A stretch of 64,000 bases of DNA, taken from contig JAQGDQ010000009.1 in the NCBI GenBank assembly GCA_030141605.1, positions 961,001 through 1,025,000 on the forward strand, read 5' to 3'. Source of the stretch: Tubiluchus corallicola (lineage: Eukaryota > Priapulida > Priapulimorpha > Priapulimorphida > Tubiluchidae). This document shows, piece by piece, positions 5,421-64,000 of the stretch. Under the pieces are notes generated by a model, which was not told the DNA's origin, made no database searches, and saw only the letters and a program-made list of their open reading frames with translations. Numbering within the stretch: the first letter of the stretch is position 1; every line of letters starts with the position of its first letter. The translations under genes and the position numbers were made by a program.

Positions 5421-31358
<25,938 letters not shown>

Positions 31359-52147: not shown

Positions 52148-52690
52148 TTGACCAAGACGGATAGTATTTTGAGACAAGTAATAAATGTACTTATGATGTC
52201 AAAACTAGAGTATGGAAGCAGTATTTGTAGGCGGTCCCAGGTAGTCTCAGAGAATGTATACTGGAATATAGTGAACCCTGTCGAAGCTGTCCAAATGAGA
52301 GCATTGAATTTGTTACTGGAGCTAAAGAACTTACCACATGAAAATCTGTTAAAAAGAATTGGCTTAACTGTATTAGCTTTTAGGTCATTACATAGTCATT
52401 TAATTGATAATGTATACAAATACGTATCTGGATTATATAGGCATGATGATGATTGGCCTGCACAGCAAGATTAGGTCCTATTTTTCATAAATCAAGAATG
52501 GCACAAAAATTGGTAAATTAAGAATTTTTCTCTTGTACAATGGCAGTGACCTGGAATAGATTACCCTATGTGAGACTGAATGTGAGAATAGCAACCTCTG
52601 TAAATTCGTTTGAACTGTAGCTGGATGAACACTATCGTCTGTATCCACTAAAATTTAGTCACTGTGCTAGCTGGAATATGCTTATATCAA
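52148..52690 (+). pseudogene. Decayed non-LTR retrotransposon: reverse transcriptase C-terminus
   Basis: The first frame (52148-52474) reads SKLEYGSSI, VEAVQMRALNLL, ELKNLPHENLLKRIGLTVL and YKYVSGLY, which follow the thumb region of CR1/L2-like reverse transcriptases. After a frame change the following bases read FFSCTMAVTWNRLP and SVNSFEL, then a stop, then LDEHY, the usual end of these proteins. Only the 3' end remains, with a frame break and an internal stop, as expected for a dead 5'-truncated copy. Confidence 0.7.
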
Positions 52691-54320: not shown

Positions 54321-54368
54321 ATGGATGAAAGTTTACATCAGCAAGCTTTCAATGACTCAACAGATCAG
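54321..54368 (+). CDS. USP exon 1 (start codon)
   Basis: Encodes MDESLHQQAFNDSTDQ and ends CAG|GTAACG in phase 0. TTCCAG at 54301-54306 may be the acceptor of this exon, with an untranslated leader exon upstream. Confidence 0.75.
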
Positions 54369-57300
54369 GTAACGCATACCAAACAAATTTTACTTAATTC
54401 AGTACCGTACGTAATTAGTACGTACCTCGAGAAATTCACAGATCTGTCTGTACATTGAGATTTGATTCATGTTAGCTGATCTAGCACTTGAATTGTATCT
54501 ATCAGTGATGTGAATTGGGAAAATTAAGTGCTCTAATTTTGTCACAACTAAAAAATAAAAACCATTGATCTGAAAAATAGCACGTCAGGTGGGTTCCTGA
54601 CCATTTTGACAAGTTTGGCATTAGTGTCAAAGCCAGACCATTTTCTAGGTTTCTCAGAGCTTTCGAACCCGAGAATTTAAAATGATTTCTGTTTGTTGCT
54701 GATGACTGATAAGTAGCTTATAAATTGCACACATTTTAATATGTAAAACCTATTAGCTTGTCTGAGATAATTCCTGTAAAATTAAATTCGAGAGATTTCA
54801 ATTACTTTGTTTTAGAGAAGCTCGGCAGTTGGCGGATCTCTTTCTGTCTCCGACCAAAGCTTTGGCGATTGCCATTCTGCAAGCTGGAAGGAAGGCAAGG
54901 AGAGCAAAATTGCGAATTTGGAACTGGATCTGCATACAGTGCCAGATTTGACTTTTGATTCAATAGGACAAACAGGTGCAGAAATTTCTTGCAACTTTTG
55001 TTTTTAAAAGTAAAATATCACCCGGTTTTCTAATGTAGTAGGAAAATAAATTGGCAGAATTAGAGTTCTACTTGACTTTAATTTTCTTATTTTAGCTCGG
55101 TGTAACAGTCCAGTGTTGGGTCATTTGTTTGATGATGATTCCTTACATGATGAGAAGCAGCAATTGAAAACAGGTATTGCCAATTTAAAAGTTCAAACAT
55201 TATTATTCTTTCCACAATGGCAGAATTGCATTGTTGATTTTCAATCTGACCCACTTTCGTTAATATGTACAGGAACCTAGTGCTTGTCAACCATTTTTCT
55301 GTATTTTCTTTTTCATTTCTTTAGAAGTCCCTTGCTTATGCTTGCTTGTTTATAACGCCCCATCAAAGCAGTATTTTCATCCTTGTCTTCTAGGGCTTAT
55401 CTGGTCGTAGAAGAGGCCCGTCCTGTAGGAGGCCTCTGTCCTATCTTTTTCTGGATTTTTACATGCCATTTTGGGATTTTGTTTTATAGTTTATAGTTTA
55501 AATAGAATGCTGACTGAATATCGAATTTTAAAGTGTTTTTCTGTGCATTGTTGAAACTACGTGGTACCAAGAAGAGCATTTAAAGCCCGTAAATTTTGTA
55601 AAATTATAGAATTTCATTATCATGTTAAAAGTTACCAGCATAATTTCGTTTTTCATTTTGAATTCAGCCTGCTGTAATTGTTGTTATCTTTTCTAGATCA
55701 GAATGCTGTAGCTGGGTTGTGTGGTTTGCGAAATTTAGGAAACACTTGCTTTATGAATTCTGGTCTACAATGTCTGTTTAGTTCTATTCAACTGGGCAGC
55801 TATTTCTTAGAGAAGTTTGAAATGGATTCTGTTACTAAAAATTCACTTACTGGTATGAATTTAATTTGATTAGTTATAGTGGCAGCAGCTGCAGCCTTTT
55901 ATTTTAAACTGGCTTTCATGTCACCATATAATGTTAACTGGAGAATTTGTATTTCCGATTAAGTATAACAAATTTGACCTATAAAACGGCGAATATATAA
56001 TATATCTGTGCATTTTGTAAGGTAGTCGTGTGCTTGGCCCAGTAAAAAACACCAATTCTACCATCTGTGCCAAGTCTTTAATTAAAACAATATTTTAATT
56101 TAAACAAAACATAATCACATATACATTACTAATAAATAATAATTACTGAAATATTGATTGGCTAACAGGAAAAACCTATATTAAAATTTTTCAGAGTGTT
56201 AACATATCACTTATACAAATTCCATAGATAATCGATCTCAAAAAAATTGTTAGTTATTCAGTTAAGAATGAAAGTAAAATTTTTGTGCAACTTGTTGCTT
56301 CAAAGTCTTTGGGTGAAGAGCTAAGCTGATGACCACCTCCATGGAAAGCAAGTGCTCATCTGACCAGGCTATTTTGCAGATGGTGACAGACTTATTCAAT
56401 AGTGATGATTTATGGATTGAAATTTAAATAAAAATGATAGTCTCTTGCAGTTTAAAAAAACGGATTTCATAAAATCGACAAAATACAAATATTGGACTCA
56501 TTGGCCTATTGTTATTCAACTTGATTGTATTGTATGCTTAAGTGCATTTTGTTTTCTAGTGCTTTGCTTTGCTCAGTACAAAATGTATTTTATAGCTTTA
56601 TGTAACTGCCTTGCTCCGATTTTTGTTACATAATGTCACTGTTTCAGGAAATCTTGCCAAACTTGTGGCAAAAGTATGGAGTGGAAAATATAATTGTCTG
56701 AGTCCATCTGAGTTTAAGCAGTGTCTTGGTGATGCTTTTCCTCAGTTTACAGGTTTTAGGCAGGCAAGTGTATACACAAATTTTTACGACTTTAAATATT
56801 TGCTCTGAAATTCAATTTTTGACACCTTTTGTCATAGTTTCTTAAATGATTAGGAACTGGATTTTTACGTTAAGCTGTGTATAGCCATGATAAGCCATGT
56901 TACACAAAATTTTTATTGTTTAATTGGTCAATGTTTATAATTTTAAAAACCGTTTTTTGTTATTTTATCTGGTATTATTTATTTCAGCACGATTCTCAAG
57001 AATTTCTGGCCTTGCTGTTAGATTCTCTTCATGAAGAACTAAACAATTCATCGGGAAAGTTCAGTTCTTCACCATCATTGTGTGGCTCAGACATTGCAGT
57101 CGATGAGAGAATCGACGAAGAAGTAAACGACGCACAACTACTACTGGAGAAGCAACTTAATAAACAAGTTGAAGATGAGAGTAATCTATCATCTGTTTCC
57201 TTGCAGAGCTCAGACGCCATGTTGTCAGTTGCCGTTACGAATCTGGAGCTGAAACATAGTAATTCTTCAAACCTGAGTCTTTCCACTTGCAATTCTGAAC

Positions 57301-60300
57301 ATACTTTACCACTGCTGAACTCAGGCATAGAAAATAACGGAGCTATTCTAGAAACGGAAAAACTTACAGAAAAGTTGATGCACATATCCCCGAGAAGTCC
57401 GGAAAAAAATGAGCTTGCCACAAGAAAAAATGCTGAGAATATTTTACCTGCTGGCTTAGAAGAATTTTACTTAAAAGACAGTAAAGTAGCAAATACAAAT
57501 GTACTTATAATGGATCACGGGGATGATATATGCAATATCCACAGTAGTAAATTTTCTAAGTTGCCTGCTCCTACTCCGCTGACATTTGACAATCTTCATG
57601 GCACTACGCCCTGTTCCGTTTGCAAGAATATGCCACACTCAGCTACTAAACTTAAGGACACGAACTTGCATGTGAAAATTGATACCTGCCCACAGGATGT
57701 AGATGCCGAGATCGCTAGTCAGCTATCATCTTCGAACTTGAGTGAAAATTTTGCTATAAATAATTGCAAACGAGATCGTCTTGAGGACGATGAGAAACCA
57801 ATGATCCTTCAAAAGAAATTCAAAAATTCTCCTATGCCTGTAGAAGAAGATTTAAAGGGCAGTAAGATTGGCAATTTAAAGGGCATCACCTCCGAACCAA
57901 CTGTCTTTTTTGCTGAAACAAGATTGCATGATCCAGGAAACACTCTTGCTACTTTTGACCTTGAAATGTCAGAATGTGAAGCATCTAATAATGCAAAGAT
58001 GTCAATTTACACTTCATTGGCTTCTGGCAGCAAAGACTTTGGGTCGAAAGAAGAATCTCGTTTGTGTTCTTTGGACAGCATGGCAAGCACATCTTATGAT
58101 TGTCAGGATCCCGTGAGGTTAGATCTGGAAATGGAAGAAGCTGATAAAGCTTGGTGCTCATATTTATCTAGGAACAAGTCAGTGGTCGTTGACACATTTC
58201 AGGGTCAGTTTAAAAGCACTGTAAGTAATAGTTATATTTTTTGCATATATTGGACAAATATTATAGATATGAAAGTCTATAAGTACAAATATCTATATAT
58301 GTCTGCATTATATATCTATAATAAATATAGAAAAAACATACAGATTAGTAGTTTGATGTCTAATATTTTTGTGTTTAGGTAATTTGCTCAAAATGTGGTC
58401 ATGTGTCAAAAACTTTTGAACCATTTATGTATCTTTCGCTACCTTTGCCACGTGCAATGGAATATCAAATAGGTAAGATCACTTATGTGATGCTACTTTA
58501 CAGAAATTTGTGTTAAGTTTGCTTAATGAATGATATTTTGTGTGAAAATTATGTGCAAACACTTTCACTTGTTATTATTTGTCATTTACTTTTGACACGT
58601 TTACCAAGTTTTACAGCGGTTGGGATTTTATTTTTTAGAATAGAACAGTTTAGAGAAGACTTACTGAAATTACAAATTGGCTAGCTGATAGTGATTCGAT
58701 ATCTCAGTAGTGGACGGACTGACAAGCAAACAGACAGAAATTCTGAACTTTGGCCCAGACATCTTTTACTATCCCAGCAGTTTTGGAGGAAGCAGGTTTT
58801 GAAACCAAAAAAATGTCAGTTTTGAAAGTTTTTCCACCATTACTAAGCAACTGTGGTTTTCATGACAGCCAATTTTTTTACTGCACAACTGGAACTCAAG
58901 TCCCATGAACTGCAGTTGGAATTGGTTTGGCACTTTCTGAAAAATGGGGTTAACAGACAGATAGACAGGACAGACAGACGAAGACGAAGAGACAGATGAG
59001 AATAAGGGTCGACTAAGTTGAGTTGTCAAACCAGTTGTGTATAATGACAAACAATTACATTGATACTATTACGTTTTTTTGTACAGCTGTGATATTTATA
59101 CGTTGTGATGGGAGCCAGCCAATGAGATATTTGCTGACCCTGCATAGAACTCAGAGTGTGTCTCACTTGAAAGAGGCATTGCTTGAAATCACCGAACAAC
59201 AGTGTGAAATTTATATTGCCGAAGTTGTAGACAATCATGTGTCAAGATTTCTTGTAAGCTGCAAAATATTCTTGCTTATTTTCGTTTTGTCAATTACATA
59301 AAGCAAAGCAGAGCATACATCTTCAGATGTCACAGTGTATCTTGTTCACAAACATAATACATTTTTCTTGTCTATTAATCAAACTTCCTTGCAATGTACA
59401 GCAAGTCCTTGCTTAACGACTCTCCATTTAGTGATGTTTTGTTTTAACGTCGCTGAACACGTGACCCTTTTTTCAGTTAACGATACACTGTTTCATTTTA
59501 ACGACGATTTTTTGCTTTACTTGAATCCAATTATAGTTTATCAAAAACTTTTTTACCTGATTTGCCCATTGTACCTTTTTTACCCATTAAAACAGTACAT
59601 ATTGCATTATTCTATTCTGAAAATGCACTAGTAACATAAACAGTGCAATTCTTAAATAAGTACACATTTTTGCTTTCTGATTGACCACCTAATTCTAGCT
59701 GTTTTTTTATGCAAACTTTATGCAAGATATTTTTCTGTAGCCTGTTGCTATAGTAACCAGATTAGATAAAATTCCCAAGGTCTGGCTTTGACTCTGCTGC
59801 AGTGTTTATTGTTTAACCACTGCCTACACTTAAATTTTAATGAAAGACAACCCGCTAGCTAGGTAAGTAAGATATATAGGTGATTTCAAACAAGTAGAAA
59901 GAAATTAATCAGTAGAAATGTGACTAAAACTCGTATTAAAATGTTTAATTTATATGATTCAAGCAGGATTGATTTTTGCCTCTGGAACGTATCTCTATTT
60001 CTGTTACATTACTTTCTGTGGAAGTCTTGGTTTAATTTAATGGCGTTTCGCTTAGTGTCGCATTTTGTTGGAATGCATTAACGTCATTAAGCGATGACTT
60101 ATTGTATGCCAATATTTTCAAGGAAAATACGTATCTTTTCTGTTACAGTTAAGGGACACAAGCTTTGCAGAATGATTTTTCATGTTGCAATCTTTGACTT
60201 TTATATAGTATTTTACTTGTTATTATGTTTTTTTTGGAATTGAAGTTCTGAAAAAACAATTTTGCTAAAATATTATGATATTTGTCTTACATTTATATTG

Positions 60301-63300
60301 AATTTTTCAATTGTAATTTTGACTACGAGACGAGAACTATCTGTATGTGTTAATGTATGTTCACTTTATTAATTTAATTTTACTCATGCTTACAGGAAGA
60401 AAATCTGCTACTACGTCTGATTAATGATACTAATCACACAGTGTATGCTTTTGAGATACAACTTCCTGTCACTGGACATGGCTTGAATCTTACTACTGCA
60501 TCCACTGAAGATGTGACAATAGCCTGTGGTGGTACACAGGCTGCAGTGGGTCCACCTAGTGGTCAATGGAAGAGTTGTTCGATATGTCTAGAAGAGATGA
60601 TGGATGCTGAATTGTTCGTGCACCCTGAGTGTGGATGCACGCTGTGCCAAGTTTGTATTAATGTAAGCAAAAAATGTGTAATTATTAACGATTTTAATAC
60701 ATCATTTAAATATCAGTACATAAAGGGTTGCTATATCTTGCTAGTACAAAATGAGAACGTATTTTTCCATTTTTTAGATGTCCTACAAACATTATGGAGG
60801 CGATACTATACCATGTCCAGTAAGTATATTGGGAACGTTTTATTTGTAATTAAACCTTTATTTACAATTTATCAATTGATTTTGTGATTTGGCAGTGTAG
60901 CTTAATATGTAGTGTGTCCTGTTCCTACATCTGATTTAATATAACTATATTATTTATTTAATTGGGAAGAAAATTGAATTTGAAGCATATCCCAGAAAAA
61001 GTTATAGGCAAAATTGCATTACTTAGCATTACCTGTATGAAAGACTTATGTAATTGGAACAGAAAATTCTTAATAATTTAAAACATTCATTGGCACCTAG
61101 TATAACAGCACTACATCGCTATTCCAGTCTGCATCACTTATTCTCCAAAAAATGTTTTGTTGATCTTATTGACAATAAAAAGTAATTTCTACTTCTGCTT
61201 AGTTAATGAAGTGTGTCCGACGAATGCTCTGATTATTTTTTCAAAGGTTGGTAATGTTTCAAACGAAGTACTGTTATAATGGCTGCATTTATCTGTCATC
61301 ACAGGAGTTTGAGTTGACAATTTTTATACAGCGTTACTACTAACGCAAGCCCTGTATGCAATAAGAGAGCAAGAGCATGTGAACGATATAAAATTTCAAT
61401 ACAAATTTGTTAAGCTTTACTTATGAAAAGTTTTCATTTGGTTAACTTCATTTGTGCTTTTAGGTATGTAATGAAAATGTTGGTCCTGATGTTTTTATAC
61501 CCATTGAAAGACTGTCGGACTACCAACCAAAGATAAGGTATTTAGTACATTTACATAAAATTGTAGAAGCATGTTTGCCATGTGTATTCAAAACTTATGT
61601 CTTTTGAGGTCAAGATTACACCGATTACCACTACACCAGGACATGGGTTTTAACCATTTTATTTAAGATAATATATATATATATATATAAATGGCAGAGA
61701 AATTTTAGTTGTGCCACCAGTAACGATTTTTAATATGTGGGACATATTACATTTTTAACCACTGAGCATTGTATGTGATGGTATGCCATGTTATACCTGT
61801 TCATCCATTTATGATGGACGATGGCAAAAGTTTTCGTGAAGTCCATTTCAAGTGTGTATCCTTATAAGGCCTAATAGCAGTAAATGATGATTATTGCCAT
61901 CTTTTTGGGTACACACAATCAAAGCCTGTCTGCATTAACAAATAAATAGTTACTATTTATGGTACATCAGATCTTATTCACAGTATGATTGAAAATTGTG
62001 TTCCTGAGGCGGTTTTTCGAAAATATCTAAATTGGGGTTATACATTTTAAAGTTCATTAATTATCGCAAGAAGATTTCCTGTAATGAAATGCAGCACTTG
62101 TGTGTTTTTACAAAATGTAATGTTAAAAAATTCTGTTTTTTTGTCACGGGGTCCTGGTGTACCAGTTTTAACTATCTTGATTTGAAAAAAAGATTCTGAT
62201 CATAAAAAGTTTTATGTTTAAGACAGTTATTTAAAATGGTTTATGTGATTAATCCAGGTGGCTACTTGGATATGGTTGGTTGTACATGAGTTTATGCTGA
62301 CAGTTACATATATACTAATGTGATGTCAAATTTTTGACATTATTATCTGGTCTTATACTGATGTATGATGTATTATGATAAAGGACAGTCCATCATGTAC
62401 TTTTCACAAATGCATTTTGCAGCAACAGTATTTTACATTCCAGGATCTACTGCTTTGCAATGTATAATGAGAAATCTCTCTTACGCTGTACAACTTGTAC
62501 AGCAAATGCTTTTCAATTTTCAGTAAGCCTTTCAAAGTTGCAGTAGGTCAATGTTGTTTGTACTCTTAGCCTGATACCCACCAATCTTGTGAGCAAAATG
62601 GTAGTGTACCAGGCCAACTATGACAATAAAGTGATCACACATGGAAATGCTGTTGAAATTTCAACCGTACAACACATACACGAGTTTTGCATATGGAATT
62701 TAATAATTGTTAGTATCATATAAGCTAATAACTAAATTATTAAATCATTTGATAATAGACATGTAAATCTTATGTCACACTCTTTTCAGAATAGCATATC
62801 TAATCCTTCAACCAGAACACGTCAATAACAACAACAACAGTGGTGCACAAATCAGTTGTTAATGTTGCTGGGCACAGATAACCTTTGACCTTTTCACGAT
62901 CATCCCCAATCCCTGGAATTCTGAAAGGCTTATTGAATAGGAAGTTGCTCTGTGTTTTAACAGTGGGAGTCTATATAAATTAGACATATGTCACTTTTTT
63001 GTTACAACATGTGAATTCCGTTTGTCTGTTTCTCTTGTAAAGCAATTCTGATTATTGTTGAAAGTGATGCCTCATCAGTATTTTTGGGCATCTTAAGTTA
63101 ATTATTTTGATTATCTAAGATAATTAAACATGTTTAAATAGTGGGTTTTACTTGTGGTCGTGCACTGATACAGCATGTATCATTATGTGCCAAATGAGAG
63201 GCTTGAAATTGAAGCTGAAGCAGCATCTAGGATGCTCAGAATTATCTCACTTAGATTTTTCTTTTTTTATCTGCTTTTTCATACTCCATTTGTATCTTCT

Positions 63301-63494
63301 CAATATATTTCAGAACTCTGCCAGTCAGCATAGTCTTTAGGCATTTAGAGAAAGACGGTGAGAAGGCTATGAGATTTGGCCATCCCAGGGTCGCATGCCT
63401 TCCCAGGAGGATCATGCCTCATGTCTTGTACGAGTTTGTACAGAAAATGTTGTATGATGGAGAAAACTATACCATTGCTCTTACAGATGCACAG
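54321..63494 (+). CDS. USP-family deubiquitinase with embedded RING-like finger (3' end outside window)
   Basis: Exons: 54321-54368, 54816-54975, 55096-55173, 55697-55852, 56648-56763, 56988-58220, 58379-58472, 59087-59253, 60396-60662, 60778-60819, 61464-61537, 63314-63494. They join in consistent phases to 872 codons and continue past the window. An in-frame TAA lies just before the ATG. The Cys box GLRNLGNTCFMN has Asn108 and catalytic Cys113; the QHDSQEFLALLLDSLHEEL box starts at 186; NKSVVVDTFQGQFKST and CSKCGHVSKTFEPFMYLSL hold the zinc-ribbon pair Cys600/603. Residues about 206-570 are a Ser-rich, probably disordered insertion. Residues 745-789 form an eight-Cys RING-like finger. The His box should follow beyond 64000. 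USPs (peptidase C19) cleave ubiquitin from proteins. The nearest relatives by eye are USP4/11/15/32, but there is no N-terminal DUSP domain. Substrate unknown. Confidence 0.93.
54816..54975 (+). CDS. USP exon 2 (polar N-terminal region)
   Basis: Residues 17-70, Ser-rich and without a known domain. It follows TTTTAG and ends in phase 1 at ACAG|GTGCAG. The antisense frame is also open but is a shadow. Confidence 0.75.
55096..55173 (+). CDS. USP exon 3
   Basis: 78 bp, phase 1 to phase 1, reading ARCNSPVLGHLFDDDSLHDE. An acidic linker before the catalytic domain. Confidence 0.75.
55697..55852 (+). CDS. USP exon 4: catalytic Cys box
   Basis: Residues 96-148. AGLCGLRNLGNTCFMNSGLQ contains the oxyanion Asn108 and nucleophile Cys113. 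It ends in phase 1 at ACTG|GTATGA. Confidence 0.95.
56648..56763 (+). CDS. USP exon 5: WSG...FTGFRQ, GC donor
   Basis: Residues 148-186, with AKLVAKVWSGKYN and FPQFTGFRQ, the usual USP segment before the Q.DSQE box. It ends CAG|GCAAGT, a GC donor. Confidence 0.93.
56764..56769 (+). other. Non-canonical GC-AG splice donor
   Basis: The intron starts GCAAGT after CAG. Only this junction keeps GFRQ|HDSQE in frame. The next GT, four bases on, would break the frame. GC-AG introns are a small minority in animals and usually have a strong flanking consensus, as here. Confidence 0.85.
56988..58220 (+). CDS. USP exon 6: QHDSQE box and large insertion
   Basis: 411 codons in one exon. The start HDSQEFLALLLDSLHEEL and the end RNKSVVVDTFQGQFKST are core USP. 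The about 360 residues between are rich in Ser, Asn, Asp and Glu and do not resemble a fold. They contain CSVCKNMPHSATK and basic patches (CKRDR, LQKKFK). Family members normally have a much shorter spacer here. Confidence 0.93.
58379..58472 (+). CDS. USP exon 7: first zinc-ribbon CxxC
   Basis: Residues 598-629. CSKCGHVSKTFEPFMYLSLP matches the LVCPEC..VS.TFDPF.YL.LPLP segment of USP4/15. The second CxxC of the ribbon is expected beyond the window. Confidence 0.95.
58953..58999 (+). repeat. GACA-rich simple repeat
   Basis: Runs of CAGACAGATAGACAGGACAG in the intron between USP exons 7 and 8. A GACA-like stretch also occurs near 58713-58740, so the segment between may be an interspersed repeat with two simple-repeat ends. 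Confidence 0.75.
59087..59253 (+). CDS. USP exon 8: ubiquitin-like segment
   Basis: Residues 629-684, including IRCDGSQPMRYLLTLHRTQS and IYIAEVVDNHVSRFL. It aligns by eye with the UBL-like insert of USP4/15/32 (RY.L.........L...L...L..AEV). Phase 1 to 0. Confidence 0.85.
59397..60106. mobile_element. Non-autonomous DNA transposon in USP intron 8
   Basis: The left end CAGCAAGTCCTTGCTTAACGAC and the reverse complement of the right end, CAATAAGTCATCGCTTAATG, are diverged inverted repeats about 706 bp apart (59399-60104). TA flanks both sides, which fits a TA-target superfamily such as Tc1/mariner, although similar termini also occur in other families. No transposase is present. Confidence 0.6.
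60396..60662 (+). CDS. USP exon 9: UBL end and start of RING-like finger
   Basis: Residues 685-773. After VYAFEIQLP it reaches CSICLEEMMD (Cys745, Cys748) and HPECGCTLCQVC (Cys763, 765, 768, 771), the first six ligands of a RING-like finger. Confidence 0.9.
60778..60819 (+). CDS. USP exon 10: 14-codon microexon
   Basis: MSYKHYGGDTIPCP, in phase 0 at both ends, bounded by TTTTTAG and CCA|GTAAGT. It supplies Cys786 of the finger. Skipping it would keep the frame but destroy the last zinc site. Confidence 0.85.
61464..61537 (+). CDS. USP exon 11: last cysteine of the finger
   Basis: Starts VCNENVGPDVFIPIERL. Joined to exon 10 it completes CPVC (Cys786, Cys789). It ends in phase 2. Confidence 0.88.
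61671..61690. repeat. (TA)n microsatellite
   Basis: About ten TA units in the intron after USP exon 11. Confidence 0.9.
63314..63494 (+). CDS. USP exon 12 (last exon seen)
   Basis: Residues 812-872, RTLPVSIVFRHLEKDGEKAM to YTIALTDAQ, ending CAG|GTTAGT in phase 0. It probably matches the V.FRE...... P....... LY..V segment that follows the UBL in USP4/15. The following exons lie outside the window. Confidence 0.88.
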
Positions 63495-63790: not shown

Positions 63791-64000
63791 AGTGATATGT
63801 TTATATGTGTTAATTCAGCTGTTTAAATATAGAATTGCCCATTTTGGGAAACCTGTACTTCACAACTGGGAGTTCACAGTAAATTTAATACTTTTTTATT
63901 TAGAACATATATTTAAGCTGTCCATTTTTGAGATTTGACACTGATCATCACAGTAAGATAATCACATTACATTCTATTTACACTTGTCAGGGAATGAATT

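Follow-up and report, generated by a model that had tools for sequence, protein, structure and literature searches.

The window, the whole 64,000-nucleotide stretch of Tubiluchus corallicola DNA that was analysed, contains a ubiquitin-specific protease (USP) gene that runs past its end. The gene model, whose exons are predicted, was assembled manually by joining open frames at splice sites and was then translated. It comprises 17 coding exons and 1241 codons on one contig, with GT-AG introns throughout save intron 5 (GC-AG). Most of exon 13 and exons 14-17 lie past window position 64000, and their sequence was taken from the same contig. Three further features lie around the gene: a minus-strand frame at 8005-8277, which we take to resemble the C-terminal portion of a kinase of the STK24/25/26 type; a plus-strand open frame at 52148-52471, presumably like a decayed reverse-transcriptase end; and, downstream of the USP gene, what we assume to be fibronectin type III-like repeat frames (L010 6900-8400, or about 78-79.4 kb if window numbering is carried on).

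Table 1. Coding exons of the predicted USP gene and position of its RING finger (window coordinates).
Feature	Coordinates	Strand	Basis
Coding exon 1, ATG at 54321	54321..54368	+	gene model; start codon inferred
Coding exon 2	54816..54975	+	gene model
Coding exon 3	55096..55173	+	gene model
Coding exon 4, USP Cys box (NTCFMNS, C113)	55697..55852	+	gene model; aligns with USP15, USP4
Coding exon 5, USP core, GC donor	56648..56763	+	gene model; PDB sequence comparison
Coding exon 6, QHDSQEF motif, long insertion, start of next USP block	56988..58220	+	gene model, Pfam
Coding exon 7, first half of USP zinc ribbon (C600, C603)	58379..58472	+	gene model
Coding exon 8, UBL-like segment	59087..59253	+	gene model; position and USP32-like likeness
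Coding exon 9, end of UBL-like segment, linker, RING ligands 1-6 (C745-C771)	60396..60662	+	
Coding exon 10 (42 nt), RING ligand 7 (C786)	60778..60819	+	gene model
Coding exon 11, RING ligand 8 (C789), linchpin position N790, linker	61464..61537	+	
RING finger C745-C789, including two introns	60576..61469	+	codon positions of gene model
Coding exon 12	63314..63494	+	gene model
Coding exon 13, first bases (C876-x2-C879-x5-C885-x2-C888)	63991..64000, continuing past window	+	

The predicted 1241-aa protein matches Pfam UCH with an E value of 8.7e-62. It carries the features by which USP deubiquitinases are recognized, namely the Cys and His boxes, the catalytic triad and the zinc ribbon: the triad positions are occupied by C113, H1042 and N1059, and C600/C603 and C960/C963 supply the two pairs of the zinc ribbon. 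Asn occurs as the third triad residue in some USPs. The PDB entries closest to the core are USP15, USP4, USP11 and USP8. Between the USP blocks lie, in order, a long insertion, a UBL-like segment, the RING finger and the element C876-x2-C879-x5-C885-x2-C888. The finger thus follows the UBL-like segment inside a split USP domain in the gene model, where the first-pass annotation had placed it. The long insertion (residues about 206-567) has no Pfam match. The UBL-like segment has no significant one, and it is named from its position and its likeness to a USP32-like gene. No EF-hand or DUSP was found in the predicted protein by Pfam up to an E value of 10, and the protein ends in DYDTL, with no CAAX-like end. 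Its sequence places the gene product among the USPs in which a UBL-containing insert interrupts the catalytic domain (USP4/11/15, USP32 and USP19), and the enzyme looks active. The long insertion in the USP core, encoded within exon 6 at 57040-58120, is Ser/Asp/Glu-rich, runs to about 360 residues and has a single CxxC pair (C395, C398).

Exons 9-11 join in frame to give C745-x2-C748-x14-C763-x-C765-x2-C768-x2-C771-x14-C786-x2-C789, exactly at the coordinates and residue numbers first proposed, and the fourth ligand is Cys (C765) rather than His, again as proposed for a finger of C4C4 type. It is therefore not a C3HC4 RING, in which ligand 4 is His. The eight ligands have RING order and spacing. 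A general RING pattern occurs once among the 46 cysteines of the predicted protein, at 745, and never appears when the whole protein or residues 685-872 are shuffled, 20000 times each. Profile scores fell on both sides of the cut-off: residues 721-815 (95 aa) by themselves match zf-RING_UBOX with 29.5 bits (E 7.6e-7), above the Pfam cut-off of 25.2, while the whole-protein search gives 21.3 bits (E 2.7e-4), under that cut-off. With the remaining Pfam RING models the finger scores under their own cut-offs. The zf-MYND model does not match it, either isolated or in the whole protein. When the stretch was shuffled with its cysteines fixed, none of nine shuffles exceeded 12.0 bits with any RING model (the best, one of the nine, reached 12.0 bits with zf_RING-like), and so the non-Cys residues carry RING signal.

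The PDB matches of the finger are led by RNF4 (4ap4, E 1.9e-5, a sum over two tandem copies; 6.4e-4 for the single-copy 4ppe), together with TRIM5 (E 1.6e-4), TRIM39 (6.7e-4) and TRIM21 (9.9e-4). The same RINGs lead with a 330-residue query (TRIM5, E 3.9e-4). An NCBIfam search returned a lone match, MAT1 at 6.0 bits, which is noise. AlphaFold2, run on the single sequence of exon 9 alone, which holds six of the eight ligands and neither ligand 7 nor ligand 8, gave a mean pLDDT of 37.6, too low to inform on the fold. The likeness of the finger to RINGs is solid and extends well past its cysteines; it would presumably hold two zinc ions in a cross-brace. Cys is the fourth ligand in C4C4 RINGs and in the RING1 of RBR proteins (CNOT4 and RNF144, respectively), and the RNF144 RING1 has the same spacing, C-x14-C-x-C-x2-C-x2-C. 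NOT4 (5aie, E 0.58) and RNF31 (7v8f, E 4.0) are weak PDB matches of the finger, and RNF144 is not among the matches. The window protein differs from RBR RING1 proteins in having neither IBR nor RING2: Pfam finds no IBR match in it, and the IBR and RING2 that follow RING1 in RBR E3s are not found.

We then compared the gene with 28 translated stretches of the same genome (343.5 Mb, 2344 contigs) that have USP matches. Some of these overlap, and they form part of 61 USP matches, with C147, C810, C70, C1084, C112, C2327 and others left out. From the human sequences, we take L024/L025 to be a USP32-like gene, L028/L029 a USP19-like gene and L022/L023 a USP31/43-like gene; L030 is USP4/15-like, by eye against the USP4 sequence. 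The USP32-like gene aligns with the window gene at 29% identity over 147 positions (74.7 bits), and the alignment includes a CxxCx5CxxC element common to both, before the last block. By eye, the USP32-like gene has a Ser/Thr-rich linker and no RING between LLRAYQIPPAE and SLFGYPLIIPC, where the window gene has its RING between VYAFEIQLP and MRFGHPRVACLP; this correspondence was read by eye, and the MAFFT alignment matches these blocks poorly. In the USP19-like gene, a MYND finger (zf-MYND, 35.5 bits) lies near the place that corresponds to the RING. By eye, the USP19 MYND presumably follows one strand further along the insert than the RING of the window gene, and the two fingers therefore look like separate gains. 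MYND in USP19 and RING here point to repeated uptake of zinc fingers by the UBL insert in this class of USPs.

No second copy of the finger was found. Residues 574-989 (416 aa) gave 22 matches in the whole genome among the best 25 candidates, nine of them the window gene itself, and none of the 13 others covers the finger, which rules against a paralogous copy among these candidates. The finger alone gave nothing at E <= 0.01 by tblastn against the 28 USP loci. When the open frames of these loci (25 aa or longer) were scanned for RING ligands 1-6, just one low-complexity Cys-rich frame, in L012, came up; such a scan could miss a finger split otherwise among exons. Outside the genome, in collections without animals, no relatives of the finger were found in viral contigs, and none of 13 pattern matches in prokaryote genome contigs was confirmed. 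Among invertebrates it could well be common.

Among named systems, USP32 (and USP6) resembles the window gene in that an insert with a UBL divides the USP core. The window protein differs from USP32/USP6 in having no CAAX-like end and a RING in place of the disordered linker. USP32 also has EF-hand and DUSP domains (excerpts of PMC10485055), both lacking from the window protein by Pfam. The window gene was rejected as a USP32 orthologue on the absence of these domains (up to E 10) and the presence of a separate USP32-like gene. USP4, USP11 and USP15 are the closest USPs in the PDB, and their D1-UBL-disordered-D2 layout is likened to that of the window protein (excerpts of PMC12718135). The window protein differs from them in showing no N-terminal DUSP and in having the RING and the CxxCx5CxxC element, and a separate USP4/15-like gene (L030) is present in the same genome. 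USP19 likewise has an insert with a UBL and a zinc finger, although its finger is a MYND (excerpts of PMC9133600). CYLD, which is not a close relative, has a cross-brace zinc domain within its USP domain, as here, but it is a B-box at another place with truncated fingers (excerpts of PMC5135002).

The first-pass annotation had pointed out that the human USP4/11/15/32 relatives are not known to have such a finger at this place. Searches of the open-licence literature, as distinct from sequence searches, likewise turned up no USP whose USP domain contains a RING. The idea is less isolated than that annotation made it, given the B-box of CYLD and the MYND of USP19. Zinc fingers inserted in USPs are already known, and in the open-licence literature a RING at this place appears to be new.

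What might a RING do inside a protease? I747 lies between ligands 1 and 2 and P787 follows ligand 7, positions that we take to be those that meet E2s in RINGs. The linchpin position, one residue after the last ligand, is Asn (N790) and not Arg. These three residues look RING-like and would be compatible with an E2-facing surface. Rbx1 also has an Asn linchpin, which outperforms Arg when the E2 is Cdc34 or Ubc12 but falls short of it with UbcH5 (excerpts of PMC7667886). In USP11, UBL2 of the insert steers the enzyme to K48 chains (excerpts of PMC12718135). The most likely role, to which we give even chances, is that the insert RING of this active-looking USP serves as a docking platform. The RING would dock ubiquitylation machinery, be it an E2, an E2~Ub or another RING E3 as partner, and would bring the protease to sites of ubiquitin attachment, where it would trim or edit chains during their assembly. 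Such docking would need no E3 activity of its own, though this is possible. We favour it on the RING-like I747, P787 and N790 together with the Asn linchpin of Rbx1, as excerpts of PMC7667886 describe it. Further points in its favour are the isolated score (29.5 against 25.2 bits), the nine Cys-fixed shuffles, the RNF4 and TRIM matches, the intact USP core and the precedent of the USP11 UBL2 acting on chain choice. Against it count the whole-protein score of 21.3 bits, below 25.2, the Cys at ligand 4 and the non-Arg linchpin. E3s and deubiquitinases frequently work in pairs, each as a protein of its own. With a RING lodged in its catalytic insert, a USP would amount to such a pair in one chain, a natural arrangement that would allow a direct test of how the placement of an E2-docking module steers the protease.

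The main rival to docking is that the finger is a zinc cross-brace with no role in E2 binding, structural or chain-selecting like the USP11 UBL2 or the CYLD B-box. Inserted zinc domains and UBLs are known in USPs (excerpts of PMC12718135, PMC5135002 and PMC9133600), the linchpin is not Arg, and the finger may mostly shape the insert because the segments that flank it resemble those of USP32. However, a purely structural brace would need neither I747 nor P787, and both are kept; the best PDB matches are E3 RINGs. We consider such a brace possible but the less probable role.

A bifunctional enzyme, with a RING that works as an E3 and a USP core that takes off or edits the ubiquitin thus added, seems quite improbable to us. 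The Pfam and PDB likeness to RINGs speaks for it, and Asn linchpins can function (excerpts of PMC7667886), but Cys at ligand 4 and the Asn linchpin leave ligase activity putative, and a RING by itself does not make a ligase. As a somewhat broader conjecture, still unlikely, one polypeptide, formed when the RING entered the split catalytic domain, would combine a working RING E3 with a working USP and both write and edit chains at one site, and in-frame skipping of exon 10 could switch the ligase off.

The predicted splicing bears on whether the finger reaches the protein. Junctions 9/10 and 10/11 are in phase 0, and the phase at the end of exon 11 is 2. In-frame skipping of exon 10 is conceivable and would cost ligand 7, while skipping exons 9-11 together (383 nt) shifts the frame. 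Because exon 9 also encodes the end of the UBL-like segment, the exons do not delimit the finger as a tidy cassette. The zf-RING_UBOX score is 29.5 bits with exon 10, 22.3 without it and 23.0 with intron 9 retained, and in the latter two cases the match stops early in the profile. Among the predicted exons, exon 10 therefore most likely belongs. That the finger is present in the DNA yet mostly absent from the protein, through skipping of exon 10, retention of intron 9 or misjoined exons, is very improbable: exon 10 has just 42 nt, intron 9 (115 nt) is open in the frame of exon 9 and the exons are known here from the gene model alone, but the splice sites are clean, the full RING match returns with exon 10 and the joint skip breaks the frame. 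Elsewhere in the gene, splicing at the GC donor of intron 5 (56764-56769, GCAAGT) rebuilds the conserved FRQ-HDSQEF motif.
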